The notes below the pieces were generated by a model that ran no database searches, was not told the DNA's origin, and worked only from the letters and a program-made list of their open reading frames with translations. Shown here one piece after another: positions 19,101 through 43,799 of a stretch of DNA of 64,000 nt. This DNA comes from Cafeteria roenbergensis (Eukaryota > Sar > Bigyra > Bicosoecida > Cafeteriaceae), in assembly GCA_008330645.1 (NCBI GenBank), contig VLTN01000002.1, positions 372,001 through 436,000 on the forward strand, read 5' to 3'. The translations under genes and the position numbers were made by a program. Position 1 is the stretch's first letter. The number at the start of each line of letters is the position of its first letter.

Positions 19101-20551
19101 GCATCGGAGTGCGCTCAATGCCCTTGTCCGGGCTGTAGGCGTTTTCGGCCTTGTGCAACAGGGCACGGGCCGACGCCACAGAGTAGGACGGTACGAAACG
19201 CTGGTGGCGGCCGCCGCCCCTTCCCGCGGGCCTTTGCGAGCCCCGGCCCTTGTTGCCGAAGCGCTTCCCGTCGCGCGGGTCGCGGGAGTCTGAAGAGTCA
19301 CCCGACAGAGCCGGCGTGGGGGTAGAGACGTTGATCAGAGCCTCGTAGGCCCCGATGGCAAGCCACTCGTCCATGGTCGACGGGGTCGTGGCCGCACGGA
19401 AGTCATCGCGCACGGCAGCTCCAATGTCGAGCATCTGCCTCACGGAGTACCTCTTGGCGTCGAGGGCGGCATCTGCCTCGGCCTCCTCCGCGGTCGGCGC
19501 GGGGCCGCGCATCGTCGCGAACTTGTCCTCGACCGGCTGGCGCGGCTCGAATGCAGTTCCGGCCGAGGGGCGCGAAGGGGCAAGTCCCTCTGCGGAGCGG
19601 ACACCGGTTTCGGCCTCGGCCTTTGATGCCGTCGCCGCTGGCGCAGGTGAAGAAGGGGTGGACGCAGGCGCCGCGGCCTCAGCGGGCTTGGGCTCCGCCT
19701 TGGCCGCTGCTGGCGCGGCCGCTACAGGTGCAGCAGCGGCGGCCTCCGCCGGTGCGGCGGCGGCGGCGGCGGTGGCAGGCTTGGCTGCGCCGGCGAGCTC
19801 TGGGCAGCGGTCGACGAGCCATTCCGGGGCGGTGTCCAGGTCCTTGGCAATCATGAAGAGCCTGGCGACCTTTTCGGGGATGGTCGTCATCTTGTACTTG
19901 GCCATGTAGCGCGCAAGCACGCCATCACTGGGGCGTCCGTCCTTCTGGGGCAGCTTGCCAAGCTTCTGCGCCTTTTCGGCGTCGTCGGCCGGCGCAGCAG
20001 CTGGGGCCGCCGCCGCGGGCGGCGCCACATGGCGAGGGTGCGCAGGGGCAGCGTACATCATCGCCGGGCGAACGTGGTGCGCTGGGGTGTACTGACCCTG
20101 GTTGGGGAAGCCAGGTCCGCGCGGTTGCTGGAACACGTGAGCCGGGTAGCCTGGGGCCATGTGCCCTTGGACAGGCCAGCCTGGAGCGCCTGCGAGCAGC
20201 ACGTCGAGAAAAGGGCATCGCAGGCGGGACAGTGAGATATGGCACCGAGACTGGTTGGCATGGCGCAGGCAAGGGGGGGGGCACGGGGGGGGGCGGGCGA
20301 GAGGGGGCGCCAAGCGCTCAAAAAGAAGAGCGTCAAGCCCCAAACCGGCAGGACTCTGGCTTCCGGCAGGAGAGCGTGCAGAACGCAGGCGGACGGCAAG
20401 GCTCACCAGGTGCCCCGCTGCAGTACGAAGAAGTCGTGCGCGGCGATGGGCAGGGGGCGGGGAGGAGAGTGCGCGCAGCCGGGGGGGGGCGGGATCGTGG
20501 AATGGCGAGCAGATCAGTCACACACGCGCGCGCTCGCCCCGAGACGCGCAA
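16103..20551 (-). CDS. eIF4G-like translation initiation factor (MIF4G-MA3-C-terminal HEAT)
   Basis: Scaffold of the eIF4F cap-binding complex, bridging eIF4E, eIF4A and eIF3. The secure exons are exon 2 (20189-17035) and exon 3 (16795-16103), joined in phase 0 by a 239-nt intron (GTGAGT ... CCCGCAG). Counting from ATG 20160 this gives 1,272 aa. An upstream exon ending at 20408 (donor GTGAGC at 20406 to 20401) joins in phase and may carry the true start, possibly ATG 20551. Seen in order: a Gly/Pro/Tyr-rich N-terminus; low-complexity Ala/Glu linkers; a candidate eIF4E-binding motif KRYSVRQMLDIG; a MIF4G HEAT domain beginning TPMQKVRAKVIAICNKLSRD; an Arg/Gly/Ser linker; an MA3 half starting VALAELASCPTLSEAVGDHF; and a C-terminal helical W2-like domain encoded mostly by exon 3. 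It is the only gene in the window tandem with its upstream neighbour (ADE2). Confidence 0.85.
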
Positions 20552-25371: not shown

Positions 25372-28300
25372 TCACCTCAACCGCGGGCTTGCATGCTGGC
25401 TCAGGATGCTTCGGCGAGCGAGAGGATTCGCCGTCACGGGGGACGCATCGCCGCCAGCATCCCTCTGCTGCGCGCCATGGCCCCCACCGGCCGACACCCC
25501 AGCCTTGGCTTGAGACGCAAGCCGATGCATTGGGTTGGCCGCCAACGCTGGGCCGTCGCCCCTTCGAGGGCCCTCCTCGGCCGGAGCTGCCCGCTCCGCC
25601 GGAGCTGGCCTCCGTCGTTTTTCCCTTGCCCGGGCCAGTGGGTTCTCGCAGGATTCCACGCCGAGAGCGCCGGGGGTCGGCCTCGCTGCGATGGGCGTCG
25701 GCGGCGGCCCCCTGGCCGCTGCTCCCGTCATGGCGTGGCGCCGCGCCGCCGTGTCCCGCATCGGGTTGCGTTCGAGGTCCGCAAGTCGCAAGGCCTGCTT
25801 GGTCACGCGTTCTAGCTGCCTCGCCTGCCTTGCCGCCAGGCTGCGGGCTCGCTGAGCCCTGTCGCGCCGCCGACGCACCGAAGCCGCCAGCCGCTTCTGC
25901 GCCTTGGCTCCGCAGTAGACAAGGGCGGCGCCCAGCGGCACCAGAAAGGACGCAAACACAACGGCGGTGACGCCAGCATTGGCGGTCGCGTCGGTTGCAG
26001 CCCATGCCCCGGAGAGCGGGCCGAGCAGCGCGAGGGAGGCGATGGAGTGGACGGCAGCGCCGCTCAGCGCCACACCGTTGAGCAGGGGCGTTCGGTACGG
26101 GTGCAGCCACATCAGCAAGAGCAACTCTGAAACTGCTTCGCAAGCAAGAAGCAGGGACTGAGCGCCCGGGCCGAGCCCAACTCCGGATACTCCCACCGCC
26201 ACGGCGGCGGCACGCAGACCCAGGAGCGCCGGCTCGATGAACAGCGTGAGGGGCGAAGTGGCGCGGCGACCGCAGCACCGAGGAACGACCGAGCCGAGGC
26301 CTGCGCCGCCCGCAGCGCCCTCGTCCCCGTCATCAGCGCCGCTGCCGCGGCAGCACGCCAGACAGAGTCCCGGGCAGCAGGGGGCGCGCCCCGTTGCGTC
26401 GCACCACTGCCTTGCGCCTCCGCTGACGCCGAGACCCTCGCGTCCACCTCCGCACCAGGGGTTGATCGGCCTGCCCCCGTTCCGCTTCGCAATGTCGTAT
26501 GCCTCGTCGTACCGGGTGTGCAGAAAGAGCGGCCCTGCCCATGCGCGAGTGCTCGCCGCCTCGAGGGAGCCCGAAGCGGCCCACAGGCACGCCAGCGCCG
26601 CAACGGGCAGTCCAACTGTGCACACTGCAATCATTGGGGCGGCCAGCGCCCAGTTGGTCGCCGCAACATCGGCGGAGCACGGCGTGCCCAGCGCGTACGC
26701 CATGACATGGCTGGCGAGGGGAGACGCTGGCTCCCCCGCCGGGTGAACGCTGACGCAGGCTGTGAGCCGCATCGCAGCAGCCGAGAGGGGAACGAACAGG
26801 AGCGACAGCACCACGGAGAGACCTGCCACCGCGGCCGAGGCGCAAGACGGCTCGGGCTGCGCGCCAGACGCCCACCTGGCCAGCTTTCGCGCGGCGGCAG
26901 CCAGCGCGTCGCGCCTGGGCGACGGCACTGCCGGCCGGGCAGCTCCCGCTGCCTTTCGAAAGAGCGAGTCTTGCTGGCCGCGAGCAGGCTCAACGGGGCC
27001 ACCGCCTGCCGACGAGCTCGTGAGGCCGGAGCGCGAAGCAGGAAGCCCGATGGCCTTGGCAGCCGCAGCGGCGCTGGAGCCCAGCGGCTCCCGTCCGGCG
27101 AGAGCCGCCGACCCCGACAACGACTCCAACTCGGACGACGACGACGACGATGACGACTCAGACACAGACCCGTCCGAGTCGCCGCGAGAGCGAGGCTCGT
27201 CCGCCAATACGGTCATCGCCGCCTCGCGGGCCCCCATCCCTTGCTCCATGCTCAGGCGGAGAGCGGCTTGCCGCGCTCGGGCCCGACGCTCCCGCATAGC
27301 AGCCTTTCGCACAGCATCGCCGCTGCTCGTGCCAGACGGGCCGTTCACGCGGTCGCCCTTGCCACGAAGCGCTGTCATGGGGTTTGAGAGCGTGCCGATC
27401 GCACCGGCGCCAGGGCCTGGGGGCGGCGTGGCCCACGGGCTCGGTCCGGTGACGGCGGTGGCGCCCCAGTCCTCCAAGACTGGACCCTTCCGGCCTTGAT
27501 TCCCGGCCGCGGCCGAGCTTCCTGGCGAGGCTGTCTGTCTGCGCGCTGTCTTGGCTAGCGAGCGGCCCTGCCGGCGAGCAGACCAGCGCCTGCAGCGGCC
27601 GCAGCACTGGTCCAGCGCAAGGCCGAGCCCGGCGCCAGTCGCATTGAGGGAGGACGCCCGGAGGCTGCACGCCGCCGCGGTGAAGGCTCCCGCCACGGCA
27701 ACGCCACAGCCGATCAGCGCTGCCAGGCGAGCGGCCAACGGCGCAGCAACAAGCCCACTGCTGTCGGCGCAACCAAGCGGCAGCGACAGCGTCCACGGAG
27801 GCGCCACGAGAGACTCGAACGCGAGGAGCAGCTGGGTCACAGGCGACGGCACGGTCGCCGGAAGCCACAGCGCCAATATCAGCAGCTGCATGCGCGGCAG
27901 CGCCAGCCGAAGCGCCTCGGCACTCTCCCGCGACACCCCTGTTGCCCGACCGGTTGCCAGAACTGCCCCCGCAAACACGAGCGCAGCAAGCCCGACGGCC
28001 GCGAGCAAGCCTCGGCCGGCACTCGATGCTGGATCAGGGCAGCGCTGGCAGTGACCAGCGCCCACAGGAGAGAAGCCAGGGGCACACTCGCCGCACGTCG
28101 TCCCGGTGTGGCCCTCTGCGCAGCCCTGCGCGTGGGGCAGCGCGAGCGCCGTCCAAGGCGTCGCAAACGCCGCAGGGCCGGGTGGAGCCCCGTTTCGGTC
28201 CAGAATCGAGCTGTCCCACGGCCACGGCAGCAAGTCAGCGACTCCTGCTGCCTGGGCTGGCTGCGAAGTGGCAAACGCCCAGAAGGCTTCGTGGAAAGTT

Positions 28301-31300
28301 GCGCGTTCCACCGCGCTGAGCGGGTCGCCCAGCGCGAGGCGACGTGCCACCGAGCCGGAACTCGCGTTGAATGTCGCCTCGGCGCCCCCGCCATGGAGCG
28401 CCGAGCTCGCCGGCTGGTTTCCGCCCTGGCAGGCCCGCGGGTTGAGGCATCGCGCGAAAGCCGCGGTCTCTTGGGCCCAGCTGATCCGCCAGAATCCTGG
28501 CAGTGCTGTTGCCGCCGCCTCCTCCCAGCCGCCGCAGACCGCGCCCGCCGGGCAAGGCTTGCAGTGCCACAAATGTGGGGCGAGGGCGCCCTGCCCGGAG
28601 CTGCCAGCAGCGCCGAGCTGCTGCGATACCAGCACCTCGCTCCCCTCGCATGCCGGGGCGGCAGGCGCTGCACTGGACGACCACGCGGTGGAGGCGCCCG
28701 AGGCCGTCAGCGTGCGCGCAGCCACAAGCAGGGCTGCCCCGGAGGCCGGCCTCGGCAGGTCCGGGTGGCTGACTTCGGCCTCCACACGCACCCTGGCTGC
28801 AGCCGCCGGGCCGCCTCCCGACAGCCTCCACGCGCGAGTCCGATGCAGGGGCAGCGGGATGGACGCCAGGAACCGGGACTCCGAACCCAGGGCTGCTGCA
28901 GCGCGGGAAAGGGCTTGGCAGGCGGCGAGAGTGCTGGCATCGCAGCCACCGCTGCTGCTGCCGCTCCCGGGGGGCTCGGCGGCACCGACAGCGACCTCGA
29001 ATGCGGCAGGCAAGGCGACAAGCGGCTCCGTTTCCGGGTGGGGCAGAGTCACCTCCCACTGGACCCTCAGGAACACCACGGCCTGGGCAGCCTCCTCGCC
29101 CTGGTCAGCGGGGGTCAGGACTGGGCGTTGCGCGGCTTCCACGCCCTGGGGCGGAAGCGACGGCGTCGCGTCCCGGACCTGCTGGAACGCCGAGCAGCTG
29201 CCCGATCCGCCGCTGCCGCCGGCGCCGGATCCGCTGGCGGCGAAGACGCTCGTCTGGTTGGCCACCACCAGCACTGGCCCGGAGCCGTCCCACGCGGCGC
29301 CAGTGATGCCCGAGCACTCCACCGCAGAGCTGTTCAGCCAGCGAAAGCTTGGGCACGGCTGGCCACCGAACGCAGCAGACTCGAGGTCCGACGCTTTGGT
29401 CCCGAACCCCTCGCCCAGCAGCGTGAGGCGCAGCGAGCTGGTGGAGGACAGGAGCGCCGAGGGGGGGTCGACCGACGTGATCCGCGGGGCGGTAAACGTG
29501 GCAAGGGAGTTGGCAGAGGAGCGGAGGCCTCCGCTGCTGACGGCCACAACCGGCTGCGCCTTGCCGGCGCCGGCCGGCGCCTTGCACCGCGCTTGCTGCG
29601 CGGAGACCCACTGCAAGGCAGAGCACTCAAGCTCGCCCACCAGAACTGTTGACAGCTGATCGGCGGACCACCCGAAGCGGCCGTTCAACGTCACCCACGA
29701 GCCGCCGCTGGCGGAAAGCAGCGGCGGGTCGATGGTGTCCACGGCGGGCGACGCCGCAACTCGAAGCGCAGGCAGGGACGACGCGAGCGGCGAGCTGTCA
29801 GTTCGTTGCCCGCGGAGAGCCAGCGACCACGCTGGAGCCTCTTCCGTCATGGCCGCCAGGTCAAACTTGTCACACTGCACCGCTGAGGAGTTGAGCCACC
29901 GGAGCTGCTCCAGGCACGGGCTGCCGGCCACCCACGCCTGCGTCACGTCCGAGGCGTTCACGCCAAAGCCCCGACCCAGCAGCAACACGCTGGCGTTGGA
30001 TGGCGCAGCAGTTGCGACCAGCGTCGCCGGCACCGCCCGAAGCACGACAGGAGGCTCGTACGAGACGGACACGGGTCCGTAGAATCCAAACAGCGACCTC
30101 TGGCCGGACACAACAACTTCGACGGGCAGGCCGGAGCCGACCCCCGGCGGAAGGGCACAGAGGACTCTGCGGTCAGACTCGCGGCTAACAGACGTGCAGC
30201 TGCGGCCTCCAATGCTCGCCGACACCTCGACCGCTTGCCCCAAGCCAAAGCCCCTGCCAATGATGCTGACAACGGAGCCCCCTGACTGCGCGTGCCCGGC
30301 CTGTGGGTAGGCCAAGTCCACAAGCGGGGGCAGGTACCTGACGGTGACCCCGCCGCTGCTCGTGCCGGCAGTCTGTCCTGCAACTGCAACGTTGACGCTG
30401 CGGTTCACCCCTCCGGCTGGGGGCGTCTGAGAGCACACGACGAGAGAGTCGTTCACGCGCACCGTGCGCCCCGGGTCGCAAACGTATGGACCAATGGAGA
30501 CGCGCGGCTGGTCAAGCGGCGGGCTCACGCCCTCCGGGCCAAAGCCCGCGCCAAACACTCTCAGCTCCTCGCTGCCGGCCGGGTCGAGCAGCAGCGGCGA
30601 CGCTGCAGACGGCACCAGCACGCGAATACTGGGGCCGCCCGAAGACGGGACCAGCTCGATCGCGCTGATTCGTGGGAGCTCGAAGGACACAGCCGGTGCA
30701 GGCGTCGCAGGCTCTCGGCTGCCGTCGACAAAAGTCGTTGACGACGTCGTGAGGGCGCCGCAGAGCGAGACCCCGAGCGAGACGTTCGCGCCAACCCCAA
30801 CGGGCGACACGCAGAGCGCCACGGTGTCAGACAGCCAGCTGGTCGACTCGCACTCCCGCCCTCCCACCTGCGCGCTCAGAGCGCTTGCCGTGGCCTCGGG
30901 CCCGCACCCTTGGCTTGGCACCTGGGACGAGTTGCCGGCCCCGAAGTTGCGCCCCCGAATGAGCAGCGTCGCCCCGCCCGTGGTCGGCAACAGGCCCCGC
31001 AAGCCAGGGGAGACCACCTCCGCTGCGTGCACCTCCGGCGGCGCGAACGCAAACAGGGCGCCGCCCGCCCCGCCGCTGCTCTGACTGCCCACCGACACCG
31101 ACACCGCGTGCCCCGCGCCCCCCAGCGACGGGGCATCGCACTCCACCGCGCTGTCGTTCACCCACCGCGTGGCCGCGCACGCCACGCCCCCCACGCTGGC
31201 CACGGGCCCAAAGTCGGCGCCGCCAAAGTCCGAGCCCGAGATGCGGATGGTGACGGGCGGCCCGCCGGTCGCGGACGCGTTGGTCCATCGGGAGTGGAGC

Positions 31301-34300
31301 GGTGGCGCGTGCCAGGCCAAGACGCGCGGCGGAACGAAGCTCACACGCTGCCTCAGCTCGCGCAGCACCCCGGGGCCAAGCAGGCGTGGCTGGCGGGCCC
31401 GGCCGACGCCCGGCGGCATGACGCACGAGAAGTCGGCATCCCTTGCCCAGCGCCCTCCGGGTGGGTCGGGAGCCACGACCCCACACGCTCCCGTTTGCCC
31501 TTGGAGCTCCACCGCCCAAGAAGCGCCTGCCTCCAAGTCCAGCCACCCCGAGCCGAGAGCGGCTGCGCGAAGCTCCACTACTTCGCCACCGGAAGCGCGC
31601 CACCCTGTGCTCTGCGTTCCGGACGTGATGCCGCCGTCGGGCGAGTTGAGCAGGACAACATCGTACTGGCGAAGCGGCTCGAGGAGGCCCAAGCGGAAGA
31701 AGCTGGGTTCTGCCTGCGACGCGCCAGCAAGCGCAATCGTGAGCTCCGACGTGAACACGGCCGAGGCGCCAGTTGTGTCCGACGAGCTCGGCTCATCGGC
31801 AGCGGTCAGGTTGAGGGCAAGGCCCAGAGGTGCCGGCGACCTGCAAAGCAGGTGCGAGTCGTTCAGCCGCACGACAGTGGAGGCATTGCAAGGCGAGCGA
31901 GATCCGCCCACGAGCGGCAGCGGCACCTCGCCTGAACCAGAGTCATCGCCAAAGTAGCGCCCGGTGACAAGCAAGAGCTCGTCGCCGGCTGGGGACAGGT
32001 AGCCACTGGGCGGGGCTCCTGAATCCGGCTCAACTAGCGACGGAGCCAGCGGGCGGCGAGGCGCTCCGTCATCCGGGCCTGGAATCACCAGGGCGGCAAC
32101 TTCCGGCGCCCTGAACGACACCTGCGCTGGCCAGCGCAGCCCAAACCCGGATCCGCCGGCAGCGTCGCCGTTGAACGCGGACTCGTCGCTCCGGACCGTC
32201 ACGCCACACAGGCTCACAGTGAGGTTGAGCCAGGCACCGGCACCCGAGGGCGCCACGCACAGGACCTGCGAGTCCGACTCCCAGGCGACCGACAGACACC
32301 TCCACACGCCGTCCGGAAGCGCGCTCCCGTCTCCCGCTCCTGCTGCGCCCGCCGCTGCGAAGGCGCGCGGGACGAGCAGCCCTGCCTCGAACACGCCTGC
32401 GGCGCTCGCGTTCGATGCCGGGCCGCAGGACGCAGCGTCCCACTCCCAGGCGCCAAAGTTTCGTCCTCGAATTCGAAGAACGTCCAGCCCGCCAACGGTG
32501 TCCAGTTGGGCGACACCTGGGCCAGGGGTCGCGCCTACAAGCTCCGCAGCGTGGATTTCGGGAGGCGCCACGCTGTACGAGGGAACGCTTTCCGGGTCGG
32601 AAGACTGGTTGCCAACGAGCAGCACCACCGAGTGGTTTTGGCCCCCCATGGACGGCACCCGGCACGTGACCAGGGCGTCCGTGCTCCACACCGTTTCCGC
32701 GCACTCCACGCCGCCAATGAGGACGCGGGGGCCAAAGTCGGCGCCCCCGAAACCGCGGCCGGCAAGACGGACTTCCACGGACGGCCCACCTCGGTCGCTG
32801 GTCCGCGCCCAGCGCTCCAAGCGCGGGGGGGCGGACCAGCTCTCCACGACCGGAGGGGCGAAGGACAGGCGCTGTTGCGTCACGGCCCGCGTCACCACGT
32901 GCCCAGTTGCATTTCGGACTTCAAGCACAAGGCGGTGGCCAGCGCCGACCATGGCTGGTAGCACGCACGTCGCGTTCCGTGCCCTCGTCTGACCGGGGGA
33001 GCCCGCGGCAGCGTCCCACGCCGCTGAGGAGCAAGCCAGCGGCCCTCCACCGGCAAGACCTTCCGTCCCCTCCGCTGGCCAGACCTGCACGGCAAGCGTG
33101 CCGGCCGACGGGTCGAACGCGTAGGCCCCGACCGACCGAACCGAAAGCGCAATCGTTGCGCCCCCCGCAGGCGGCCAGCCAAACGACTCCGAGCCGGCTG
33201 CGTGGACGGCGTCCGGAGGATCCACGCCAGACCTTGGCCCCAGAATGTCGGCGGCGAACTGGTCCGAGGCCCTGGCAGCCAGGACACGCAGATACGCCTT
33301 TGCGCCGTCCTGCCCCCCTGCAGCTGGGAGCAGCCACGCATCGGTCACCAGGCCGACGGGCAGGGCTGATGACGTGCACTCGACTGCCGAGTCATTGTGC
33401 CGCACGACTGTGCCGCTCTCGCAAGGAAAGTTGCCGTCCAGGGCAAACGAGGTCGGGCTGCTGCCCGTCCACCACGCCGGCGGGGGCCAGTCCCCGGCGC
33501 TCTGCTCACGAGCAGACGGCCCGAACGAGTGCCCAAGCAGCTGAATGCGTTCGCCCCCTGACGGGTCCATCAGCAGCGCGGGAAGGGCACCTGGCGCCGG
33601 CGGCTCGGCTGACACCAGTGCACTCAGGGGGGCGCTGCCGTCTCTCGGGAAGAGCAAGACTCTTTCCACAGCCGGAGGGCGGTACGAAACCAGCAGCGGC
33701 GCAGGAGCGGAGGAGCTCTGAGTCCCTTCGCGCGCCGAAGCATCGCTCGAGGCGTTAAGGCCGCAGACCTGAACCGTGACAGTGAGGTTCGCGCCCGCCC
33801 CGGCAGGCGTGATGCACACCAAGGCTCGATCGGAGCGCCAATGAACGCTCCGGCAAGGCAGGCCCCCCACGGCCACCGCAAGCGCCTCTGCGGCCGCCTT
33901 GGAGCGGTTCCCGTCCTGTTGAGGCAAGCTCGCAGCGTCGGCCCAGCTGATCGCGCCCGCACTCCGAGGGGCGCAGCCCGTCTGCCACTCGGAAGCGTCG
34001 GACAAGTTTCCGGCCCCGAAGTTGCGGCCCCGCACGAGCAGCTCCTCTCCTCCCGTCGCAGCCAGCGCCTGCACGCTCGACGACGAGCCGAGGAACTCCG
34101 CTGCGTGCACCTCCGGCGGCGCGAACGCAAACAGGGCGCCGCCCGCCCCGCCGCTGCTCTGGTTGCCCACCGACACCGTGACGGCTGCGCCAGCGCCCCC
34201 CAGCGACGGGGCATCGCACTCCACCGCGCTGTCGTTCACCCACCGCGTGGCCGCGCACGCCACGCCCCCCACGCTGGCCACGGGCCCAAAGTCGGCGCCG

Positions 34301-37300
34301 CCAAAGTCCGAGCCCGAGATGCGGATGGTGACGGGCGGCCCGCCGGTCGCGGACGCGTTGGTCCATCGGGAGTGGAGCGGGGGCGCGTGCCAGGCCAGGA
34401 CGCGCGGCGGGGAGAACGACAGCGTTTCTGCGCCCGGAGCCGCAATGGCCACTGGGCCTCCGGCGAAGCTGAGCTCCTCCACCACGACAGGGAGGAGCGA
34501 TCCAGTGCCGGGCGGCAGAGTGCAGGTGACGTTGGCGGCATCCCGTTCGGACCCAGGCAGCCCGTCGGGCTCAAACGCGGGCGAGAGGCACAGTTGCGAG
34601 CCGATGCGGACGCGCAGGGGCAGAGACACGTCCACCCGGTAGCTCCCCAGGGCGCGCACCTCGAGCCTGATCGGGGCGCCTCCCTGTGCCGCCCAGCAGC
34701 AGCGATCGCCCGGCTCGCTGCCGCCCGGACGGTTGGGTCCGTCCGGCTCGGACAGAAACGTCGCGACGTAGCGCTGGTTGTAGGGCACGTAGCTTGCCAG
34801 CAAGGGCAGCCTGCCCGTCGCGCCCTCGCTGCCGCGAGCGCCGTTCACAACGACGTCGAGGCGGAACAGCTGCGCCTCCCCAGCGGGCGTTGAAGGGCAC
34901 CGAATCACGCCGTCGGACGTCCAGTCGGCGTTGGCGCAGTCGACCCCGTCGATGGCGAGACCTGCCGGGCCAACGCCCGCGACACCCGGGACGCCAAAGA
35001 ATTCGCCGCGCACAAGCAGTGCGTCGCCGCCGGCCGGGTCGAGAAGCACGAGCGGCCCCGGCGCTCCCTGCGGGGGCACCGTGACTGTGAACGTGGGAAC
35101 GCCGTCACTCTGAGTCACCTCGACAGCGTCGACGCGCGGTCGCGTGTAGGCAACCGCCACCGGGAACCGGGAAGAGAGCTGGCCCGCCCAGCGGCTCTCT
35201 GGCTGCGACGCGGCCGATGCTGCCGCTTCTGTCCCAGGGGGCGCGCCATCGAAAGCGCTGGACCAGGAATCGACCAGTTGGCCGCAAACGCTGACGGACA
35301 GGGACATGTTCCTGCCCGCCCCGGCGGGCACTTGGCACCAAAGCTCGGAGTCTGACCGCCACTCGACCGGAGTGCAAGCCGAACCAGAGGCAAGCTGGAC
35401 GCTGGCAAGCCACCCAGCCAAGGCGGTTGCGTTGCCGGGCTGCCGGGCGGCTGCATCGCTCGCCACGTCAGGCCCGCAGGCGGCGGCCGCGGCCTCGAGC
35501 ACAGCATCCCACGGCCCCGGCGGTGCCAAGGTGGCGTTGACGACGCCAAAGCCGCGTCCCCGGACCCGAAGCACGCTCCCGCCTTTGGTGTCGGCACTGC
35601 CGTCGACCGATGGCGTCTGGAGGACTGGAAGCAGCACGGAGCCCGGCGAATCGACAAGCCCGGCCGAGTGCAGCTCTGGTGGCGCAAACGAGAAGCGGAC
35701 GCTCGCAGACGACGAGCTGTTCTGACGCTCCCAGTGCGCGCGCGCAACGGCACCCGTGGTGCTCTGGTTGCCCACCGACACCGACACCGCGTGCCCCGCG
35801 CCCCCCAGCGACGGGGCATCGCACTCCACCGCGCTGTCGTTCACCCACCGCGTGGCCGCGCACGCCACGCCCCCCACGCTGGCCACGGGCCCAAAGTCGG
35901 CGCCGCCAAAGTCCGAGCCCGAGATGCGGATGGTGACGGGCGGCCCGCCGGTCGCGGACGCATTGGTCCATCGGGAGTGGAGCGGTGGCGCGTGCCAGGC
36001 CAGGACGCGCGGCGGGGAGAACGACAGCGTTTGCGCCACGGTGGCCACGAGCTCCTCGCCGCCAAACCCTCCTTCTCCAAGCAGCGCGATTGACACTGCA
36101 TGGCCAGTGCCGACCCCAGCAGGAAGCCTGCACGTCAGGTTGGCGACTCCGGCTTGCACTCCAGACGGCGACCATCCTAAAAACGCGCAGGGCCAAACCC
36201 GGGACAGCGCGCCTGCTCCAGGTTGGCCGGCGCCTGCCGAAATATTCACCACGCCAAGCGGGTTGCTCGTGTTGACGCTGTAGGACCCCTGTGCGACAAC
36301 CTCAACCACCATCACGCTGCCGCTGCCGCTTGCAGGAACGCCAGCCACAGCCTCGTCGTCCAGTGTGGTGAAGGCATTCCCTGCAGCAACGATTCTGGCT
36401 ACAAACTGCATCGAGGGCGCAACCGTTTGCAAGGCAATTTGCGCCTCCGGGGACACTTGGCCAGTTGCGTTGATCTGCACCGTGACGTTGCGGCTGTTTT
36501 CCCAGGCGAGTGGCTCCAGGGTCCTGCAAACCACTTGGTCGTCGCTCAAATGGGTGTGCGTTCCCGCTTGGCAGGGCAAGGCATCCGCGGAAGCCACAAG
36601 CGTGGCGGGTTCGACAGCCCCAGGAGCGCCGAAATACCTGCCGATCACCGCCACGAGCTGGCCACCGGCGGGGTCGAGCAGATGCGGCAGGCCGCCCACT
36701 CCCACGTCGCGGTCTCTTCGCGGCCCGCCGTCCAGTGGCCAGATTCCCAGGGCTGTGACCACTGGCGGCAGGTAGCCTGCGAGGGCCGGCCACTGAGCCG
36801 GCGCGCCAGCAGGAGGTGGGCTTGGCGGGGCCCCAAGGAACCACGACTGCGTGCTGGCTGTTTCTTGGCCACACAGCGTCACTGCCAGGGCCAGGCTGGC
36901 GCCCGCACCGGCAGGAGTGACGCAGTCAAGCGCTGTGTCCGAGACCCACACCACTTGCTGGCAGGCATTCTGGCCAACAGCTGCTGCGAAGCTGGCTCCG
37001 CCTGACGCCCCGCCGCACAACGTGCTCCTTGCGGCGCCGGCTGAGTTGAACCCGCCGAAGTTGCGGCCCCGCACTCTGAGAGCCTGCCCGCCGAGCGTGT
37101 CCATTTCAGACCACGATGCAACACGCGCGGCCTGCAGTGCGCCGAGCGACGCGAGCGAGATCACCTCCGCTGCGTGCACCTCCGGCGGCGCGAACGCAAA
37201 CAGGGCGCCGCCCGCCCCGCCGCTGCTCTGACTGCCCACCGACAACGACACCGCGTGCCCCGCGCCCCCCAGCGACGGGGCATCGCACTCCACCGCGCTG

Positions 37301-39411
37301 TCGTTCACCCACCGCGTGGCCGCGCACGCCACGCCCCCCACGCTGGCCACGGGCCCAAAGTCGGCGCCGCCAAAGTCCGAGCCCGAGATGCGGATGGTGA
37401 CGGGCGGCCCGCCGGTCGCGGACGCGTTGGTCCATCGGGAGTGGAGCGGGGGCGCGTGCCAGGCCAGAACGCGCGGCGGTCGGACGGACAGTCGCTCTTC
37501 CGCCACAAGTTCCAGCTCCGTACCCTCTGGCTCTGACGTGAACGCTGTGCGGAACGCGTTTGCTGACCTCACGCGCACAGACCAGCCAGCACCAGCAAGC
37601 GGAGGAAGAGCGCAAACGATGCTTGCCCACGTCGCAGCCTCGCGGCCGCCCCCGCTGACGCCCGCCCTCCAGCCGTCAGCCTCGTCCCGGCCTCCGCCGC
37701 CTGCAGCATCGCCAGCCGTGCCCCACCACGCAGCCAGCGTGCAGTTTTGCTCAGTCCCACCGGGGGAGTCCTGGGTGAGAGCCACCGAGAGGTCAGAGGC
37801 TGCTGCTAGGGAGGCGTTGATACGCGCGCCTCCGATGGCTGTCACGTCGACCACCAGAAGCTCGGACCCCGCTGCCCCGACCAGAAGCTCTAGCTGTGGC
37901 GCTGCCCCTGGAACAGGGGGCTGGCCCAAGATTCGAGCCTCGGCCAGAAATCCCGACAGCTCGAGCAGGACGATTGCCCCGACCTCCAGGGCGCCATCGC
38001 GTCCCGCATCCGGCGCGCCCACAGCCACCTCTGCGGCTGCGCCGGGCCCTACCCCAGCTGGCGAAAGGGCCGCACCGAACCGCGCTATCAGGCTGTCGCT
38101 CCCGAGCACAGACTTGACCTTGGGCGTGTTCTCTGCGTGCGCCGATCCCACGACGCGCTTCGGCCAGCCGCTGGAGTTGACGGAGAGGAGCAAGACGAAG
38201 CCCGCACCTGAGCCGGCGCCGTCGTCCCCGATCGCAAGGTCGATGGTGCCACTCGGGTCGTGGTCCAGGTTTCCCAGACTGCTCAAGCTGGCGCCGAATC
38301 TCGAGGCCCAGGACGCCGACGCAGCAGCGACGTGCTCAGCCGTGGGCCGGAGCTCCACGACCCGGACCAACGATGGAATTTCCCCCGGCGTGCCGACACC
38401 AGGCATTGCGCAAGCGAGCGTGAGAAGGAACACTGCGCCTTTTGCCGCTCTGCCGGGCGCGCCGACGGCGGCCAAGCGGTGCCAAGACGACCCAGAAGCC
38501 ACGCTTGCGTTGCCGAGCATGGCGACGGCTGCCCCGAAGGCGTCGCCAGGCTGAAGTGACACGGGGGCGGCCGCGACGAGGGGGACTGGCGTCGTGCCCG
38601 CCCCCGTGTCGGTGGCGGGCGGGCCCCACACCTCAGCCGCGGGCCCTGGGAACGAGGAGATGCCCCACGACGCCGTGCCCAGGACCTGGGTTGACGCCGG
38701 CCTGATGTCCAGCAGCATCGCGACGACCATGCCTGCCGACGAGTTGGCCCCGGGCGCCCCCACAAGGAGATCGCCAGGCACACCGTCCCCGTCGAGGTCC
38801 CCTGCAGCTGCCACGCTCGCGCCAAGCAGGGCGCTGGGCCCCACGAGGCCCGATGGCACCCCAGCTGCGCCGGGGACCATCCTCATGGCATCCTTGGCCA
38901 GGCCAAGCGCCGGGTCGAAGGAGAGCACGAATACTCCCCCCGTTTCAGTGCCAGACGCCGACGCAGCCGGCGCCCCGACTACCAGGTCCACAAGCCCGGC
39001 CCCGCGCAGCCCCGCGCCCATAAGGGCCACGGACGACCCGAAGAGCTCGCCGTCGCTGAGCTTCCCACCCCGCAAGTCGCCGTTGGACTTGTCCACCGTG
39101 TCGACCGTCGTGAGGGAGCTGGCAGGCCCCATCTCCGCAACGAAGACCGTCCCTTGCGCCATGAGCGGGGCGCCCACAAGCATGCGGTCGGTGCTTCCGC
39201 CGCCCGCATAGGCCCAACCCTCTGCCCCAAGGCCAGCCGCCGTGCCGAACTGGGACCCGGGCGGGAGAACGTTGCCCAGGCCGCCGCGAGCGTTGCTGAC
39301 GAGAGAGGCCTGCTGCACCACCTCCGCCGCCATGGCGCAAGGCAGCACGGCACAGCAAGCGCGCGACAGGCCAACGCCGAGCAGCGCGAGAAGCGGCGCG
39401 TGGGGAAGCAT
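25372..39411 (-). CDS. Giant FG-GAP/IPT-TIG surface protein with multipass membrane domain
   Basis: One uninterrupted frame of 4,679 aa, with no intron over 14 kb. From the chosen start, the first Met before a signal peptide (MLPHAPLLALLGVGLSRACC), come: FG-GAP-like repeats (about 70-500; FVAEM, LVVGAPAAS, GDLDGDGVPGDLLVGAPG and IDLAIGDDGAGSGAG are typical integrin-alpha/FG-GAP patterns); many IPT/TIG domains (about 550-3,500) with the marks PPRVxxWxAPP, GGPPVTIRISGSDFGG and a CxxPxxGxG-type end; a Cys-rich ephrin-receptor-like region (about 3,590-3,800; CKPCPAGAVCGG, TGTTCGECAPGF); about nine hydrophobic helices (about 3,800-4,500) broken by a Ser/Asp-rich loop; and a basic cytosolic tail ending near RSILSQHASPRLR. 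A sizable extension with another hydrophobic patch is open upstream to 39972. The build suggests an adhesion or receptor protein. I know no named family with exactly this order; function not assigned. Confidence 0.88.
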   Translation of the reverse strand: MLPHAPLLALLGVGLSRACCAVLPCAMAAEVVQQASLVSNARGGLGNVLPPGSQFGTAAGLGAEGWAYAGGGSTDRMLVGAPLMAQGTVFVAEMGPASSLTTVDTVDKSNGDLRGGKLSDGELFGSSVALMGAGLRGAGLVDLVVGAPAASASGTETGGVFVLSFDPALGLAKDAMRMVPGAAGVPSGLVGPSALLGASVAAAGDLDGDGVPGDLLVGAPGANSSAGMVVAMLLDIRPASTQVLGTASWGISSFPGPAAEVWGPPATDTGAGTTPVPLVAAAPVSLQPGDAFGAAVAMLGNASVASGSSWHRLAAVGAPGRAAKGAVFLLTLACAMPGVGTPGEIPSLVRVVELRPTAEHVAAASASWASRFGASLSSLGNLDHDPSGTIDLAIGDDGAGSGAGFVLLLSVNSSGWPKRVVGSAHAENTPKVKSVLGSDSLIARFGAALSPAGVGPGAAAEVAVGAPDAGRDGALEVGAIVLLELSGFLAEARILGQPPVPGAAPQLELLVGAAGSELLVVDVTAIGGARINASLAAASDLSVALTQDSPGGTEQNCTLAAWWGTAGDAAGGGGRDEADGWRAGVSGGGREAATWASIVCALPPLAGAGWSVRVRSANAFRTAFTSEPEGTELELVAEERLSVRPPRVLAWHAPPLHSRWTNASATGGPPVTIRISGSDFGGADFGPVASVGGVACAATRWVNDSAVECDAPSLGGAGHAVSLSVGSQSSGGAGGALFAFAPPEVHAAEVISLASLGALQAARVASWSEMDTLGGQALRVRGRNFGGFNSAGAARSTLCGGASGGASFAAAVGQNACQQVVWVSDTALDCVTPAGAGASLALAVTLCGQETASTQSWFLGAPPSPPPAGAPAQWPALAGYLPPVVTALGIWPLDGGPRRDRDVGVGGLPHLLDPAGGQLVAVIGRYFGAPGAVEPATLVASADALPCQAGTHTHLSDDQVVCRTLEPLAWENSRNVTVQINATGQVSPEAQIALQTVAPSMQFVARIVAAGNAFTTLDDEAVAGVPASGSGSVMVVEVVAQGSYSVNTSNPLGVVNISAGAGQPGAGALSRVWPCAFLGWSPSGVQAGVANLTCRLPAGVGTGHAVSIALLGEGGFGGEELVATVAQTLSFSPPRVLAWHAPPLHSRWTNASATGGPPVTIRISGSDFGGADFGPVASVGGVACAATRWVNDSAVECDAPSLGGAGHAVSVSVGNQSTTGAVARAHWERQNSSSSASVRFSFAPPELHSAGLVDSPGSVLLPVLQTPSVDGSADTKGGSVLRVRGRGFGVVNATLAPPGPWDAVLEAAAAACGPDVASDAAARQPGNATALAGWLASVQLASGSACTPVEWRSDSELWCQVPAGAGRNMSLSVSVCGQLVDSWSSAFDGAPPGTEAAASAASQPESRWAGQLSSRFPVAVAYTRPRVDAVEVTQSDGVPTFTVTVPPQGAPGPLVLLDPAGGDALLVRGEFFGVPGVAGVGPAGLAIDGVDCANADWTSDGVIRCPSTPAGEAQLFRLDVVVNGARGSEGATGRLPLLASYVPYNQRYVATFLSEPDGPNRPGGSEPGDRCCWAAQGGAPIRLEVRALGSYRVDVSLPLRVRIGSQLCLSPAFEPDGLPGSERDAANVTCTLPPGTGSLLPVVVEELSFAGGPVAIAAPGAETLSFSPPRVLAWHAPPLHSRWTNASATGGPPVTIRISGSDFGGADFGPVASVGGVACAATRWVNDSAVECDAPSLGGAGAAVTVSVGNQSSGGAGGALFAFAPPEVHAAEFLGSSSSVQALAATGGEELLVRGRNFGAGNLSDASEWQTGCAPRSAGAISWADAASLPQQDGNRSKAAAEALAVAVGGLPCRSVHWRSDRALVCITPAGAGANLTVTVQVCGLNASSDASAREGTQSSSAPAPLLVSYRPPAVERVLLFPRDGSAPLSALVSAEPPAPGALPALLMDPSGGERIQLLGHSFGPSAREQSAGDWPPPAWWTGSSPTSFALDGNFPCESGTVVRHNDSAVECTSSALPVGLVTDAWLLPAAGGQDGAKAYLRVLAARASDQFAADILGPRSGVDPPDAVHAAGSESFGWPPAGGATIALSVRSVGAYAFDPSAGTLAVQVWPAEGTEGLAGGGPLACSSAAWDAAAGSPGQTRARNATCVLPAMVGAGHRLVLEVRNATGHVVTRAVTQQRLSFAPPVVESWSAPPRLERWARTSDRGGPSVEVRLAGRGFGGADFGPRVLIGGVECAETVWSTDALVTCRVPSMGGQNHSVVLLVGNQSSDPESVPSYSVAPPEIHAAELVGATPGPGVAQLDTVGGLDVLRIRGRNFGAWEWDAASCGPASNASAAGVFEAGLLVPRAFAAAGAAGAGDGSALPDGVWRCLSVAWESDSQVLCVAPSGAGAWLNLTVSLCGVTVRSDESAFNGDAAGGSGFGLRWPAQVSFRAPEVAALVIPGPDDGAPRRPLAPSLVEPDSGAPPSGYLSPAGDELLLVTGRYFGDDSGSGEVPLPLVGGSRSPCNASTVVRLNDSHLLCRSPAPLGLALNLTAADEPSSSDTTGASAVFTSELTIALAGASQAEPSFFRLGLLEPLRQYDVVLLNSPDGGITSGTQSTGWRASGGEVVELRAAALGSGWLDLEAGASWAVELQGQTGACGVVAPDPPGGRWARDADFSCVMPPGVGRARQPRLLGPGVLRELRQRVSFVPPRVLAWHAPPLHSRWTNASATGGPPVTIRISGSDFGGADFGPVASVGGVACAATRWVNDSAVECDAPSLGGAGHAVSVSVGSQSSGGAGGALFAFAPPEVHAAEVVSPGLRGLLPTTGGATLLIRGRNFGAGNSSQVPSQGCGPEATASALSAQVGGRECESTSWLSDTVALCVSPVGVGANVSLGVSLCGALTTSSTTFVDGSREPATPAPAVSFELPRISAIELVPSSGGPSIRVLVPSAASPLLLDPAGSEELRVFGAGFGPEGVSPPLDQPRVSIGPYVCDPGRTVRVNDSLVVCSQTPPAGGVNRSVNVAVAGQTAGTSSGGVTVRYLPPLVDLAYPQAGHAQSGGSVVSIIGRGFGLGQAVEVSASIGGRSCTSVSRESDRRVLCALPPGVGSGLPVEVVVSGQRSLFGFYGPVSVSYEPPVVLRAVPATLVATAAPSNASVLLLGRGFGVNASDVTQAWVAGSPCLEQLRWLNSSAVQCDKFDLAAMTEEAPAWSLALRGQRTDSSPLASSLPALRVAASPAVDTIDPPLLSASGGSWVTLNGRFGWSADQLSTVLVGELECSALQWVSAQQARCKAPAGAGKAQPVVAVSSGGLRSSANSLATFTAPRITSVDPPSALLSSTSSLRLTLLGEGFGTKASDLESAAFGGQPCPSFRWLNSSAVECSGITGAAWDGSGPVLVVANQTSVFAASGSGAGGSGGSGSCSAFQQVRDATPSLPPQGVEAAQRPVLTPADQGEEAAQAVVFLRVQWEVTLPHPETEPLVALPAAFEVAVGAAEPPGSGSSSGGCDASTLAACQALSRAAAALGSESRFLASIPLPLHRTRAWRLSGGGPAAAARVRVEAEVSHPDLPRPASGAALLVAARTLTASGASTAWSSSAAPAAPACEGSEVLVSQQLGAAGSSGQGALAPHLWHCKPCPAGAVCGGWEEAAATALPGFWRISWAQETAAFARCLNPRACQGGNQPASSALHGGGAEATFNASSGSVARRLALGDPLSAVERATFHEAFWAFATSQPAQAAGVADLLPWPWDSSILDRNGAPPGPAAFATPWTALALPHAQGCAEGHTGTTCGECAPGFSPVGAGHCQRCPDPASSAGRGLLAAVGLAALVFAGAVLATGRATGVSRESAEALRLALPRMQLLILALWLPATVPSPVTQLLLAFESLVAPPWTLSLPLGCADSSGLVAAPLAARLAALIGCGVAVAGAFTAAACSLRASSLNATGAGLGLALDQCCGRCRRWSARRQGRSLAKTARRQTASPGSSAAAGNQGRKGPVLEDWGATAVTGPSPWATPPPGPGAGAIGTLSNPMTALRGKGDRVNGPSGTSSGDAVRKAAMRERRARARQAALRLSMEQGMGAREAAMTVLADEPRSRGDSDGSVSESSSSSSSSELESLSGSAALAGREPLGSSAAAAAKAIGLPASRSGLTSSSAGGGPVEPARGQQDSLFRKAAGAARPAVPSPRRDALAAAARKLARWASGAQPEPSCASAAVAGLSVVLSLLFVPLSAAAMRLTACVSVHPAGEPASPLASHVMAYALGTPCSADVAATNWALAAPMIAVCTVGLPVAALACLWAASGSLEAASTRAWAGPLFLHTRYDEAYDIAKRNGGRPINPWCGGGREGLGVSGGARQWCDATGRAPCCPGLCLACCRGSGADDGDEGAAGGAGLGSVVPRCCGRRATSPLTLFIEPALLGLRAAAVAVGVSGVGLGPGAQSLLLACEAVSELLLLMWLHPYRTPLLNGVALSGAAVHSIASLALLGPLSGAWAATDATANAGVTAVVFASFLVPLGAALVYCGAKAQKRLAASVRRRRDRAQRARSLAARQARQLERVTKQALRLADLERNPMRDTAARRHAMTGAAARGPPPTPIAARPTPGALGVESCENPLARAREKRRRPAPAERAAPAEEGPRRGDGPALAANPMHRLASQAKAGVSAGGGHGAQQRDAGGDASPVTANPLARRSILSQHASPRLR
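31018..31332 (-). repeat. IPT repeat block, copy A
   Basis: One of four near-identical blocks in the giant gene. It encodes the end of one IPT domain and the start of the next (RVLAWHAPPLHSRW, GGPPVTIRISGSDFGGADFG, CDAPSLGGAGHAVSVSVG). The core of about 170 nt around 31130-31290 is identical in all four copies. It differs from copy D mainly at isolated bases. Confidence 0.9.
32530..32860 (-). repeat. Diverged IPT repeat block between copies A and B
   Basis: The fifth block at the expected spacing has the same architecture (PPVVESWSAPPRLERW, GGPSVEVRLAGRGFGGADFG, CRVPSMGGQNHSVVLLVG) but clearly different DNA. It shows what normal divergence looks like next to the homogenised copies. Confidence 0.7.
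34096..34410 (-). repeat. IPT repeat block, copy B
   Basis: Same block as copy A, with local differences near 34165-34195 (VTVSVGNQSS in place of VSVSVGSQSS). The flanking PPEVHAAE tail is also shared. The identical core lies near 34200-34360. Confidence 0.9.
35761..36014 (-). repeat. IPT repeat block, copy C
   Basis: Shares the core with copies A, B and D but breaks off on the left at about 35761, where the sequence becomes unrelated. At its right end it resembles copy B for longer (ggagaacgacagcgttt), suggesting patchwork exchange between copies. Confidence 0.9.
37165..37479 (-). repeat. IPT repeat block, copy D
   Basis: Fourth near-identical copy, the one nearest the N-terminus. It matches copy A over almost the full 315 nt, with single-base changes such as caacgac for cgacacc-type positions. 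The following flank again encodes PPEVHAAE. Confidence 0.9.
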
Positions 39412-40310
39412 GGCCGCCGTTGAGCGGCTTGGGCTGCGATGGGTGTCGCTCGGCAACCCGCCTGCCTGCCCGACGGCTGCGCCCCCTCGTTTGGGCCCGG
39501 ACGCCAGCTTCCATAGCCCAGCGGATGCCACGCCGAGGTGGGCGCGAGCGCCGGCAGCCTGCCTGCTGGCACCCGTGCCGGGCGACAGCGCTCCTGATGA
39601 CGCAGGCTGGCAGCAGCGCGCGTGCAGCCAGAGCACCGCAACGAGGGCGAGGAGCCGCGCTCCCGTGCCGCGACTCCTTTCCCACACAGAGCCGCGTGCT
39701 CCTCGCGGCGAGCTCGCCGGCTTGGCGTCCCGGGGACCGTGCCGCGGTGCTTGCCATGCGGCGCAAACTGCCATCGGCAACAGCATTGCTCGCCGTCGCG
39801 CTTGCTTCGCAGCCGCGCCTGGCACGCCCGGGTCGTTTGCGCGAAGGGCGCAGCAGCAATACTGCGCGAGGCGCGAGATGGGCGCCAGAAGCGCGCCTGC
39901 CGGTCGGGGAGCAGGCGTTGAGGGCTCGGAAATGCGGAATTCCCGGCGCTCTCGTCTGCAACTCCTCTCCATTCGCTGCTCTGCAGGTTAGGGCGGCCAC
40001 CGGCTCAAGGCGAAGGCCGGGCGACGTCGTGCCGTCATGGGCAGAGAGCTGCTCACCGGCCCGCACCTGGGTCCTGCGTAGTGAGCTTGAGCGCCCGCCT
40101 CGATCGTCAGGCTGGTTCGGAGGGGGCATGCGGCTGGCGTGCGCAAGCGGCGCTGGCGGGGTCGGGGCCGGAGGCTGGCTGCTGCGGCGGCCGCTGTTGC
40201 TGTCTTTGCTTGCGGCGCGCCTCGCCACGCCGCGCTCACGGCCGCGGTGACCAAGAGCTTGCCTTCTTGCGCCTGTTCCGACGCCCCGCGTGTTGCAGCC
40301 TGCTGTCACC
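39412..40310. promoter_or_regulatory. Divergent intergenic region, giant protein and uL22
   Basis: These 899 bp lie between outward-facing starts. The giant gene's frame stays open to 39972, so part could be coding if translation begins earlier. The uL22 promoter and 5' UTR must lie on the right side. No motif is assigned. Confidence 0.4.
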
Positions 40311-41497
40311 ATGGTGAAGGACGAGACCTACTCCCACTCCAAGTACTCCAAGTGGTTCTCCAAGGAGGGTGAGCTTCCCGCAGTCCCGGGGGACAGCGCA
40401 TACACTGCCCACCCTGGCGAGAGCCACGGCACCCGGCCACTCTCTCCACGACTGAAGGGATTGGGGGCCAGGGGCGGCTGCAGTGCTCGGCTCTGGGGCG
40501 CACGGGGGAGCGAGCAGCACCGTGTTTGGCCGGGCAGTCGTGCAGGTTGGCAGCAAGTCAATGTTGGCCTGCCGGCGCGGTCCGCGCTGCCGTTGGGCGC
40601 CACGCCTCCCTGTTCCCAAAGGTGGTGCAGCCAGCATTGGTGGAGACCGGGCTAAAGCCTGGAGGAATCCGGGGCGGGAGAGGGGGAGCAACAGTCCGGT
40701 CTGGCCGAGCGCTCGCGCGCTCTGAACCGGCGCGGGTTGTCCGCTCTCCCGGCCCGCCCGACAGCCTGCCTACGGCCCCAGGCCGATTGCGGCCGTCGTC
40801 CACGTAGCTCGGTGGGCCGTGCCCCGAGCTCGGCCACACGAGCGGGCCGGCAAAGCCCTTTGCTCGATTCGACCTCGCTCGACCCTTCGCCCTCGTTTTG
40901 CCCTGCTTGCAACCACGCCCGTCCCTACCCCCCGCAGACACGGCCGCCATGCCGCGTGCCCGCGTCACCCGCTGCCTTGTGCACTACAAGAAGATGCGCG
41001 AGGTCGCCGCCGCCATCCGTGGCATGAACATCCACGAGGCCATCGCCTACCTCAACCGCGTGCTCGAGAAGCAGGCCGGTATCCCCGCCCGCGTGCACAC
41101 CGGTGGCTGCGGCCGCCACGGCGTCGGGAAGCTCGTCAACGCCCCCGGCAACTGCGTGATGTTCCCGACCAAGCCCACCAAGGCCATGATCTGGATCCTC
41201 AACAACGTGCTCGCCGGCAAGACCTGCGAGAAGCTCGACGACACCGAGCGCGCGGCCCTCGTCCTCGCCCACGTGCAGGTGAACCGCTCCCCCAAGATGC
41301 GCCGCCGCACGTACCGTGCCCACGGCCGCATCTCCGCGTACATGCGCTCCCCGTGCCATGTTGAGGTCATCGCCAAGCCCCGTGACATGACCGTGCCGTC
41401 CGAGGCCGGCAAGGAGGAGGCCGAGGCCGCCAAGCGCCTCACGCGCAAGTCGATGGCCCGCCTTCGCCTTCGCCTTGGCCAGGGCGCCACCGCCTGA
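40311..41497 (+). CDS. RPL17: 60S ribosomal protein uL22 (RPL17)
   Basis: Large-subunit protein lining the exit tunnel. Exon 1 is only 58 nt (40311-40368) and exon 2 is 40938-41497. They are separated by a 569-nt intron (GTGAGC ... CCCGCAG), the longest placed here; the product is 205 aa. The junction completes GAC, reading WFSKE-DTAAMPRARVTRC. The diagnostic sequence follows: LVHYKKMREVAAAIRGMNIHEA, GGCGRHGVGK, the region IQVN replaced by VQVNRSPKMRRRTYRAHGR, and ISAYMRSPCHVEVI. The tail is Ala/Lys/Arg-rich. The N-terminus before VTRC differs from the animal protein, which begins MVRY, but also starts with a short Ser/Lys-rich stretch. A long first intron is common in ribosomal protein genes. 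Frame and motifs leave little doubt. Confidence 0.97.
40369..40937 (+). other. Intron, uL22
   Basis: Donor GTGAGC and acceptor cccgcag, 569 nt, phase 1; the longest placed intron in the window. It lies 58 nt after the start codon. Confidence 0.92.

Positions 41498-43739: not shown

Positions 43740-43799
<60 letters not shown>

Follow-up and report, generated by a model that had tools for sequence, protein, structure and literature searches.

A predicted giant surface protein of Cafeteria with a long IPT/TIG array and a membrane module related to TRP/Flc-matching paralogs

We analysed a stretch of 64,000 nucleotides (nt) from the genome of Cafeteria roenbergensis (assembly GCA_008330645.1, contig VLTN01000002.1, positions 372,001 to 436,000), called the window below, which corresponds to C2:372001-436000 of the genome scanned for relatives (36,303,456 bases in 167 contigs). 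On its minus strand the window carries a giant open reading frame (ORF) whose predicted product runs from a signal-peptide-like start through a likely FG-GAP head, a long array of IPT/TIG domains and a cysteine-rich region to a multipass C-terminus, and an earlier sequence-only reading of this DNA had the overall order of these parts right. Our comparisons place the protein in a large family within the same genome, several members of which match the Pfam family TRP (PF06011), and it is through these paralogs that its membrane part appears to be related to TRP/Flc-type proteins. The host is a marine, bacteria-eating flagellate, a heterotrophic bicosoecid stramenopile and not an alga, and no light-harvesting protein families were found in the scanned genome. 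The current name of the species is Cafeteria burkhardae, these C. roenbergensis strains having presumably been renamed, and PMC10945749 and PMC8547959 use the newer name.

The giant ORF (25372..39411, on the minus strand like all other parts of the protein given below) extends from an ATG at 39411 to a stop at 25372 and encodes 4,679 amino acids (aa). Upstream of 39411 the frame remains open as far as an ATG at 39972, for a total of 4,866 aa; residues are numbered in this longer frame (P0001), in which the 39411 start is aa 188. The G+C content by codon position is 0.72/0.72/0.73 over aa 1-187 and 0.74/0.59/0.82 from aa 188 onwards, and because the coding pattern is missing from the first part and begins at aa 188, we favour the start at 39411; the in-frame extension (aa 1-187, 39412..39972) is probably 5' untranslated. 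The favoured start opens with a signal-peptide-like hydrophobic stretch (aa 188-213, 39334..39411; hydropathy peak at aa 194-212). This call, like the helix calls below, was made from hydropathy rather than with a dedicated signal-peptide or membrane predictor. The extension also holds a second hydrophobic, signal-like stretch (39619-39660, minus strand, about aa 105-118).

A run of 4,866 open codons has a natural-log probability of about -87 at the base frequencies of the window, the plus strand of 25372..39411 contains many stops, and the coding pattern is present in all ten blocks of 500 codons (the last one shorter), so no long non-coding gap is hidden in the giant frame. The 14-kb, 4,679-codon frame that had been claimed is therefore borne out as a single uninterrupted long frame, within which a short, stop-free, in-frame intron could still be accommodated at the DNA level.

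Following the signal-like start, the head (aa 240-684, 37921..39255) shows by eye about six blade-like repeats, one of them with the sequence GDLDGDGVPGD. Pfam FG-GAP (PF01839) matches two stretches with 18.0 bits (E 0.0028), which is under the curated cut-off of 22.1 bits, and a phmmer match to integrin alpha-4 is weak (E 0.025). At the same time, an FG-GAP-type pattern (FG...D...VGA), composed after the sequence had been inspected, has three occurrences in aa 214-690, whereas 2000 shuffles averaged 0.055 and never exceeded 2. The FG-GAP head proposed earlier thus stands on a repeat pattern beyond the shuffles, although not on a Pfam score above the cut-off, and a propeller-like fold is likely. 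Integrin alpha chains have leg domains after the propeller and a single helix. The giant protein shares with them an FG-GAP head with a DxDxDG loop, but it is a multipass protein with a TIG rod, and neither leg domains nor the single-helix arrangement was found in it (Pfam matches at E up to 1, a scope that holds for all Pfam negatives on this protein below; nine helices).

The strongest domain evidence in the ectodomain comes from the rod. Pfam TIG (PF01833) matches with 335 bits (E 3.5e-102; 14 stretches; curated cut-off 20.9 bits), and an iterative profile, seeded with TIG units from elsewhere in the genome and taking in its own hits, delimits 24 units over aa 685-3579 (29236..37920); on shuffled sequence this profile gave no match in 18 of 20 cases and one match in the other two. 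The long IPT array of the sequence-only reading therefore lies well above background. It consists of single units and five A-B-C-D tetrads, each tetrad about 510 aa long, with unit A beginning at aa 834, 1322, 1857, 2375 and 2883, a B unit next each time, and the C and D units less distinct. Mean identity is 0.77 among A units, 0.44 among B, 0.36 among C and 0.35 among D, compared with 0.30-0.35 between classes. Assuming about 4 nm per Ig-like domain, the array would form an extended rod of about 100 nm.

Unit A is near-identical in four of the five tetrads (31063-37473, minus strand), while the adjoining units have diverged. Copies A1 (aa 834-921, 37210..37473), A2 (aa 1322-1409, 35746..36009), A3 (aa 1857-1944, 34141..34404) and A5 (aa 2883-2970, 31063..31326; 98% nt identity to A1) share 94-98% DNA identity, with synonymous divergence (dS) of 0.04-0.13 over 258 nt, and A4 (aa 2375-2462, 32587..32850) is a diverged copy with 57-58% identity to the others. 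The same four members make up an ungapped 300-nt repeat family with 77-94% identity to its reference copy. The pattern points to recent duplication or gene conversion confined to about one domain. Elsewhere in the genome, at C10:668396-671986 (minus strand), TIG matches of equal score recur every 837 bases. They lie within a frame of 8,336 codons and suggest a tandem array of near-identical TIG units, possibly variable in copy number. Long TIG arrays at the cell surface are familiar from fibrocystin/PKHD1L1, which carry G8 and PbH1 domains and a single helix. The giant protein is alike in its long, presumably surface-exposed TIG array; it differs in having nine helices instead of one and no G8 or PbH1 (parallel beta-helix) match in Pfam.

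Between rod and membrane lies a Cys-rich juxtamembrane region, delimited by its Cys positions (aa 3775-3978, 28039..28650), whose last part is a DUF7630-like module with five Cys (aa 3951-3978, 28039..28122). There, just before the first helix, the pattern CxxG...CxxC...CxxC (Cys at aa 3951, 3960, 3963, 3975 and 3978) forms what we call the collar. DUF7630 (PF24633) scores 13.2, 18.1 and, in the genome scan, 24.8 bits, all short of the curated cut-off of 27. The window protein is not matched by Ephrin_rec_like (PF07699) at E up to 1, and two of 21 family modules match it (best E 0.11). The region once read as ephrin-receptor-like is thus a genuine Cys-rich module, but one that resembles DUF7630 and lacks the Pfam Ephrin_rec_like match. 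Besides TIG, FG-GAP and DUF7630, no Pfam family matches the window protein at E up to 1.

With the Kyte-Doolittle threshold set to 1.4, nine hydrophobic helices are counted in the membrane module (aa 3988-4685, 25918..28011), in agreement with the multipass C-terminus of about nine helices seen before. The third helix is followed by a 276-aa loop (TM3-TM4, the third to fourth transmembrane helices; 26842..27669) that is long, Ser/Arg-rich and equipped with an acidic Ser cluster, and the module is followed by a C-terminal tail (25375..25917). Loop and tail are both Arg-rich, and with an outside N-terminus both are predicted to be cytosolic. The TM5-TM6 loop, predicted to lie on the same side, contains a Cys-rich patch (CCPGLCLACC and more; 26230-26577, minus strand), possibly a lipidation or metal site. 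A long adhesive ectodomain with a multipass end also recalls adhesion G-protein-coupled receptors (GPCRs), whose hallmarks are GAIN/GPS and seven helices. P0001 has nine helices, not seven, and no GAIN match in Pfam at E up to 1; one of the 21 family modules matches GAIN weakly (E 0.16). The GPS motif is also among the domains enriched in stationary-phase C. burkhardae (PMC7852580). We consider a seven-helix receptor of this kind highly improbable.

To what is the membrane module related? We examined 29 loci, 25 of which gave a collar with enough downstream sequence, and aligned 20 of these with the window module from the collar to the end (alignment A1). Left out were L011 and L023 (the same places as L014 and L049), L043 (a near copy of L037), and L045 and L046 (last helices poorly aligned); among the four loci without a collar, L059, which matches PF06011 below the cut-off (E 7.3e-4), was added to alignment A3. 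In the 21 aligned modules, Cys aa 4068 and Pro aa 4625 are invariant, as are the five collar Cys, the latter by construction, since modules were selected by the collar pattern. With a profile of the 20 paralog modules, built without the window sequence, the window C-terminus is found at E 1.4e-27, and parts of its module alone at E 3.6e-18 (residues 281-771) and E 3.1e-12 (residues 401-771; E-values for 1000 sequences). Controls on the 401-771 stretch gave 3.0 bits at best in 30 block shuffles and no match for the reversed sequence. Judged from these profile matches, the window module is homologous to those of the paralogs.

Eight of the 21 aligned modules match PF06011 at E up to 1 (best E 4.6e-10), and none of the three further collar modules scanned does (L043, L045, L046), for a total of 8 of 24. 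Three paralogs exceed the cut-off of 28.5 bits: C48b with 29.6, C7 with 32.0 and C1 with 28.8. Genome-wide, PF06011 matches 19 places, 11 of them over the cut-off, and none in 14 control genomes. The multipass end, which the sequence-only reading had left anonymous, has therefore acquired relatives, namely paralogs that match Pfam TRP, and the idea of a mechanosensor gains a concrete basis.

Fungal TRP-like/Flc proteins of this family include S. pombe Pkd2 (which we take to carry PF06011), Flc1 and A. nidulans TrpR; they are small and have an outside lipid-binding domain. The giant protein resembles them in its nine-helix domain, and three of its paralogs are over the cut-off, but its outer part comprises about 3,700 aa of FG-GAP, TIG and Cys-rich sequence, and it is itself too divergent for the model. 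The membrane domain of fission yeast Pkd2 has nine helices, and the protein lets Ca2+ through on membrane stretch (earlier work cited in PMC11277609); PF06011 is the model with which such TRP-like proteins are found in fungi (PMC8618638). The same relationship allows for a different function, in which the module is a carrier for lipid, flavin or another small molecule and the outer part a sensor of the envelope or surface: Flc1-type TRP-domain proteins are described as acting in both calcium homeostasis and flavin transport (PMC9600462). A giant rod, however, makes little sense on a plain carrier, and the ML/TRP_N lipid-binding domain is not found in the window protein, so we hold such a transporter or lipid handler to be unlikely.

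AlphaFold models reached a predicted local distance difference test score (pLDDT) of 65.2 and a predicted template modelling score (pTM) of 0.61 for the window module, and 72.7 and 0.72 for that of C48b. Among viral structures, the window model is matched best by an entry titled 'Transient receptor potential ion channel [Megaviridae environmental sample]', with probability 0.98 but E 0.27. The C48b model has this same entry as its best viral match, at E 6.2e-5 (probability 1.00, 427 columns), its sole viral match with E <0.001. Template modelling scores of the structural matches are low (0.19-0.47), and the Megaviridae entry is called TRP here by its title.

The predicted cytosolic parts share a short motif. 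In the window protein, loop and tail contain five NP[ML] motifs: an NPM in the TM3-TM4 loop (aa 4197-4199, 27376..27384) and, in the tail, NPM at aa 4736-4738 (25759..25767), NPL at aa 4777-4779 (25636..25644), NPM at aa 4813-4815 (25528..25536) and NPL at aa 4849-4851 (25420..25428). Across the 21 modules, NP[MLI] occurs 23 times in 15,227 aa, in 16 modules, compared with a mean of 2.23 and a maximum of 7 in 500 shuffles; since the modules are related to one another and some are truncated at locus ends, this and the following counts are not independent events. In the non-helix segments, NP[ML] was counted 21 times, in 14 of the 21 modules, whereas 2000 shuffles averaged 1.39 and never exceeded 7, an enrichment of about 15-fold; nine permuted or altered motifs all stayed within their own shuffle range. 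Ten ectodomains showed no enrichment (5 NP[MLI] in 30,170 aa, 5.63 expected), and three soluble ORFs of the window have no NP[ML], yet just 0.06-0.15 would be expected in each. If the N-terminus is outside, 19 of the 23 NP[MLI] follow an odd helix number and would thus be inside; the remaining four are in modules for which eight helices were counted. By eye, NPM motifs are also present in loops or tails of two PF06011-matching frames outside the DUF7630 list (L060 and L062). None of the titles listed in our literature search concerns such a motif, which we take to be new; it is a candidate sorting or docking signal.

When the whole genome was scanned, TIG gave at least 144 matches (150 of 250 candidates scored), FG-GAP 22 and DUF7630 37, 13 of the latter over the cut-off and the window not among them; the window frame is missing from the FG-GAP list as well, its score being below that threshold. 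TIG is present in at least 25 of the 37 DUF7630 frames, and at least the frames on C4, C12 and C32 combine FG-GAP, TIG and DUF7630. Some of the frames resemble alleles or near-duplicates (C49/C54, C95/C105/C106). Ten paralog frames, of which C1 is cut at its N-terminal side, were scanned against Pfam, and TIG was found in nine. The C4 and C12 paralogs repeat the order of the window protein (FG-GAP, TIG, Cys, multipass): C4 has FG-GAP at 37.0 bits and eight TIG stretches, with DUF7630 and TRP (25.1) below the cut-off, and C12 has FG-GAP at 21.7 bits, just below the cut-off (26.2 in the genome scan), five TIG stretches and weak DUF7630 and TRP. Others carry the Cys collar and multipass module behind different outer parts, with cadherin arrays, RCC1 repeats or longer or shorter TIG arrays. 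C7 has 18 TIG stretches and TRP at 32.0 bits, C48 (C48:270916-280446, plus strand) has RCC1 repeats (13 RCC1_2 stretches), three TIG stretches and TRP PF06011 at 29.6, C1 has three TIG stretches and TRP at 28.8, C32 (C32:57400-72927, plus strand) has FG-GAP at 23.1 with cadherin repeats and TIG, and C49, C52 and C2b (C49:258126-266939, C52:237112-247242 and C2:566875-579030, all plus strand) have cadherin repeats with TIG; C17 has weak FG-GAP only. Judging by domain content, the sampled members have exchanged their outer parts but retained the collar and multipass end. In a tree of the 21 modules, the window groups with C48, C1, C4, C7, C12, C76 and C17 with modest support (83/87, drawn open).

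The cadherin repeats of C32, C49, C52 and C2 are over the Pfam cut-off and joined to TIG and a multipass end, here in a bicosoecid. Oomycete cadherins have been described in PMC2926784, whose text does not mention IPT, TIG or polycystin. The architecture of the window protein, for which the sequence-only reading knew no family, is thus not alone, being that of a member of a large family in its own genome, but none is described in the literature searched: the titles listed, drawn mostly from non-subscription papers, include no description of the gene or of a TIG-TRP/Flc fusion, and nothing on these domains was found in PMC12221091 and PMC5447177. Novelty was judged from this literature, and such architectures may be listed in protein-architecture databases or elsewhere.

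The neighbours of the giant gene are ordinary eukaryotic genes. Head to head with it lies a ribosomal protein L17e gene (40311-41497, plus strand; Pfam Ribosomal_L22 at E 3e-22 in the frame 40898-41497) that seems to contain an intron, its first ATG at 40311 having been placed by eye. Further frames with Pfam matches, at 2918-7894, 16876-20406 and 41808-45482 (minus strand) and 52867-57561 (plus strand), accompany it; the matches in the window neighbours are to DEAD/DEAH-helicase, MIF4G, dual-specificity phosphatase and PDS5.

A long chain of adhesion domains on a membrane part related to calcium channels suggests a stretch- or contact-sensing receptor. We propose an adhesion receptor, carried on a long rod, which controls the opening of a Pkd2/Flc-like cation channel, and give this a probability of roughly 45%; the sequence-only reading's adhesion receptor or mechanosensor is thus still the leading idea, now with TRP-matching paralogs as its basis, although the function itself is inferred. 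It is favoured by the stretch-evoked Ca2+ passage of fission yeast Pkd2, the anchoring of MST1 filaments through PKD2 in Chlamydomonas and the stationary-phase enrichment of IPT-domain genes, taken together. The signal peptide would deliver a giant receptor to the plasma membrane, where an FG-GAP propeller-like head, borne by a flexible rod built from about 24 Ig-like IPT/TIG domains, may bind prey, a surface or another cell. The Cys-rich collar would couple the rod to the nine-helix TRP/Flc-type (Pkd2-like) module, so that force or binding, transmitted through rod and collar, might make the module permeable to cations such as Ca2+. Sorting and docking may fall to the long loop and the NP[ML]-repeat tail. 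The family to which the gene belongs retains collar and membrane module and exchanges its outer parts (TIG, FG-GAP, cadherin, RCC1).

Several observations weigh against this proposal. The window protein has no direct PF06011 match at E up to 1, and its link to the family goes through paralogs because the module itself does not match; this module is a long branch in the module tree, and no paralog turned up when the final 375 aa of the membrane part were used in a single-sequence search. Exactly nine helices are counted in just 11 of the 21 modules, the remainder having 7 to 11 at the same threshold. Among solved structures, nothing above the chance range was found with either model, no PDB sequence matches the profiles, and the lipid-binding domain was not found in the window protein, as given above. 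Flavin carriage and calcium regulation have also been ascribed to PF06011 proteins, so the family name is no proof of a channel. Lastly, the enrichment of IPT-domain genes among those up in stationary-phase C. burkhardae (log2 1.62, adjusted p 0.002; PMC7852580) is a figure for the class, not for the giant gene individually.

The divergence of the window module, together with its lack of a recognisable PF06011 match, would suit an adhesion or coat protein that acts through its outer part, in attachment, prey capture or a starvation-stage coat, and whose module no longer conducts and is simply a strong anchor. In the same stationary-phase data, IPT is enriched alongside Fibrocystin-L, G8, lectin and laminin domains, a set linked there to cell adhesion and signalling (PMC7852580), and the joint enrichment of IPT, EGF, lectin and laminin genes under cell adhesion speaks for such a protein. 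However, the sampled family preserves the membrane module under changing outer parts, and this number of conserved helices and long loops would be superfluous in a mere anchor. This is the strongest rival to the proposed channel-gating receptor, and a possible, if doubtful, one.

The pairing of an adhesive ectodomain with a channel, as in the proposed receptor, has precedents. In animals, polycystin-1/PKD2 couple a long adhesive ectodomain to a TRP-type channel; the likeness lies in this idea of pairing, since the domains and the TRP family are different and no PKD, REJ, GAIN or PLAT was found in the window protein. In Chlamydomonas, PKD2 is needed to anchor MST1 filaments, which are dominated by Ig-like and Sushi domains (PMC10846610). 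This mastigoneme complex is alike in that an Ig-like-rich filament is anchored by a TRP-type channel, but unlike in that its components are separate proteins and its channel belongs to another family, whereas the Cafeteria protein is one chain. By analogy with this complex, the rod could itself be a flagellar filament or the protein a flagellar-surface receptor, and NP[ML] motifs could then serve as a location signal. With MST1 and PKD2 being separate chains in Chlamydomonas, we find a flagellar role improbable, a little more so than that of a transporter.

Returning to the channel-gating receptor, a broader version of it may be envisaged, in which Cafeteria would have a repertoire of giant, one-chain tethered TRP/Flc-type channels with swappable adhesive antennae that may extend to about 100 nm and a shared cytosolic NP[ML] code for delivery or docking, used for touch-sensing of prey, surfaces or starvation; this is a tentative extension that we would not yet expect to hold. 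Little is known of how free-living phagotrophs recognise prey and surfaces, and the family would be a candidate open to direct tests in a species for which four strains have been sequenced and growth-phase RNA data exist. If the proposal is true, animal-like adhesion domains and a fungal-type TRP/Flc module would be joined in one chain, and the pairing of an adhesive ectodomain with a TRP channel, as in polycystins and in Chlamydomonas PKD2 with its mastigonemes, would have another form in stramenopiles.

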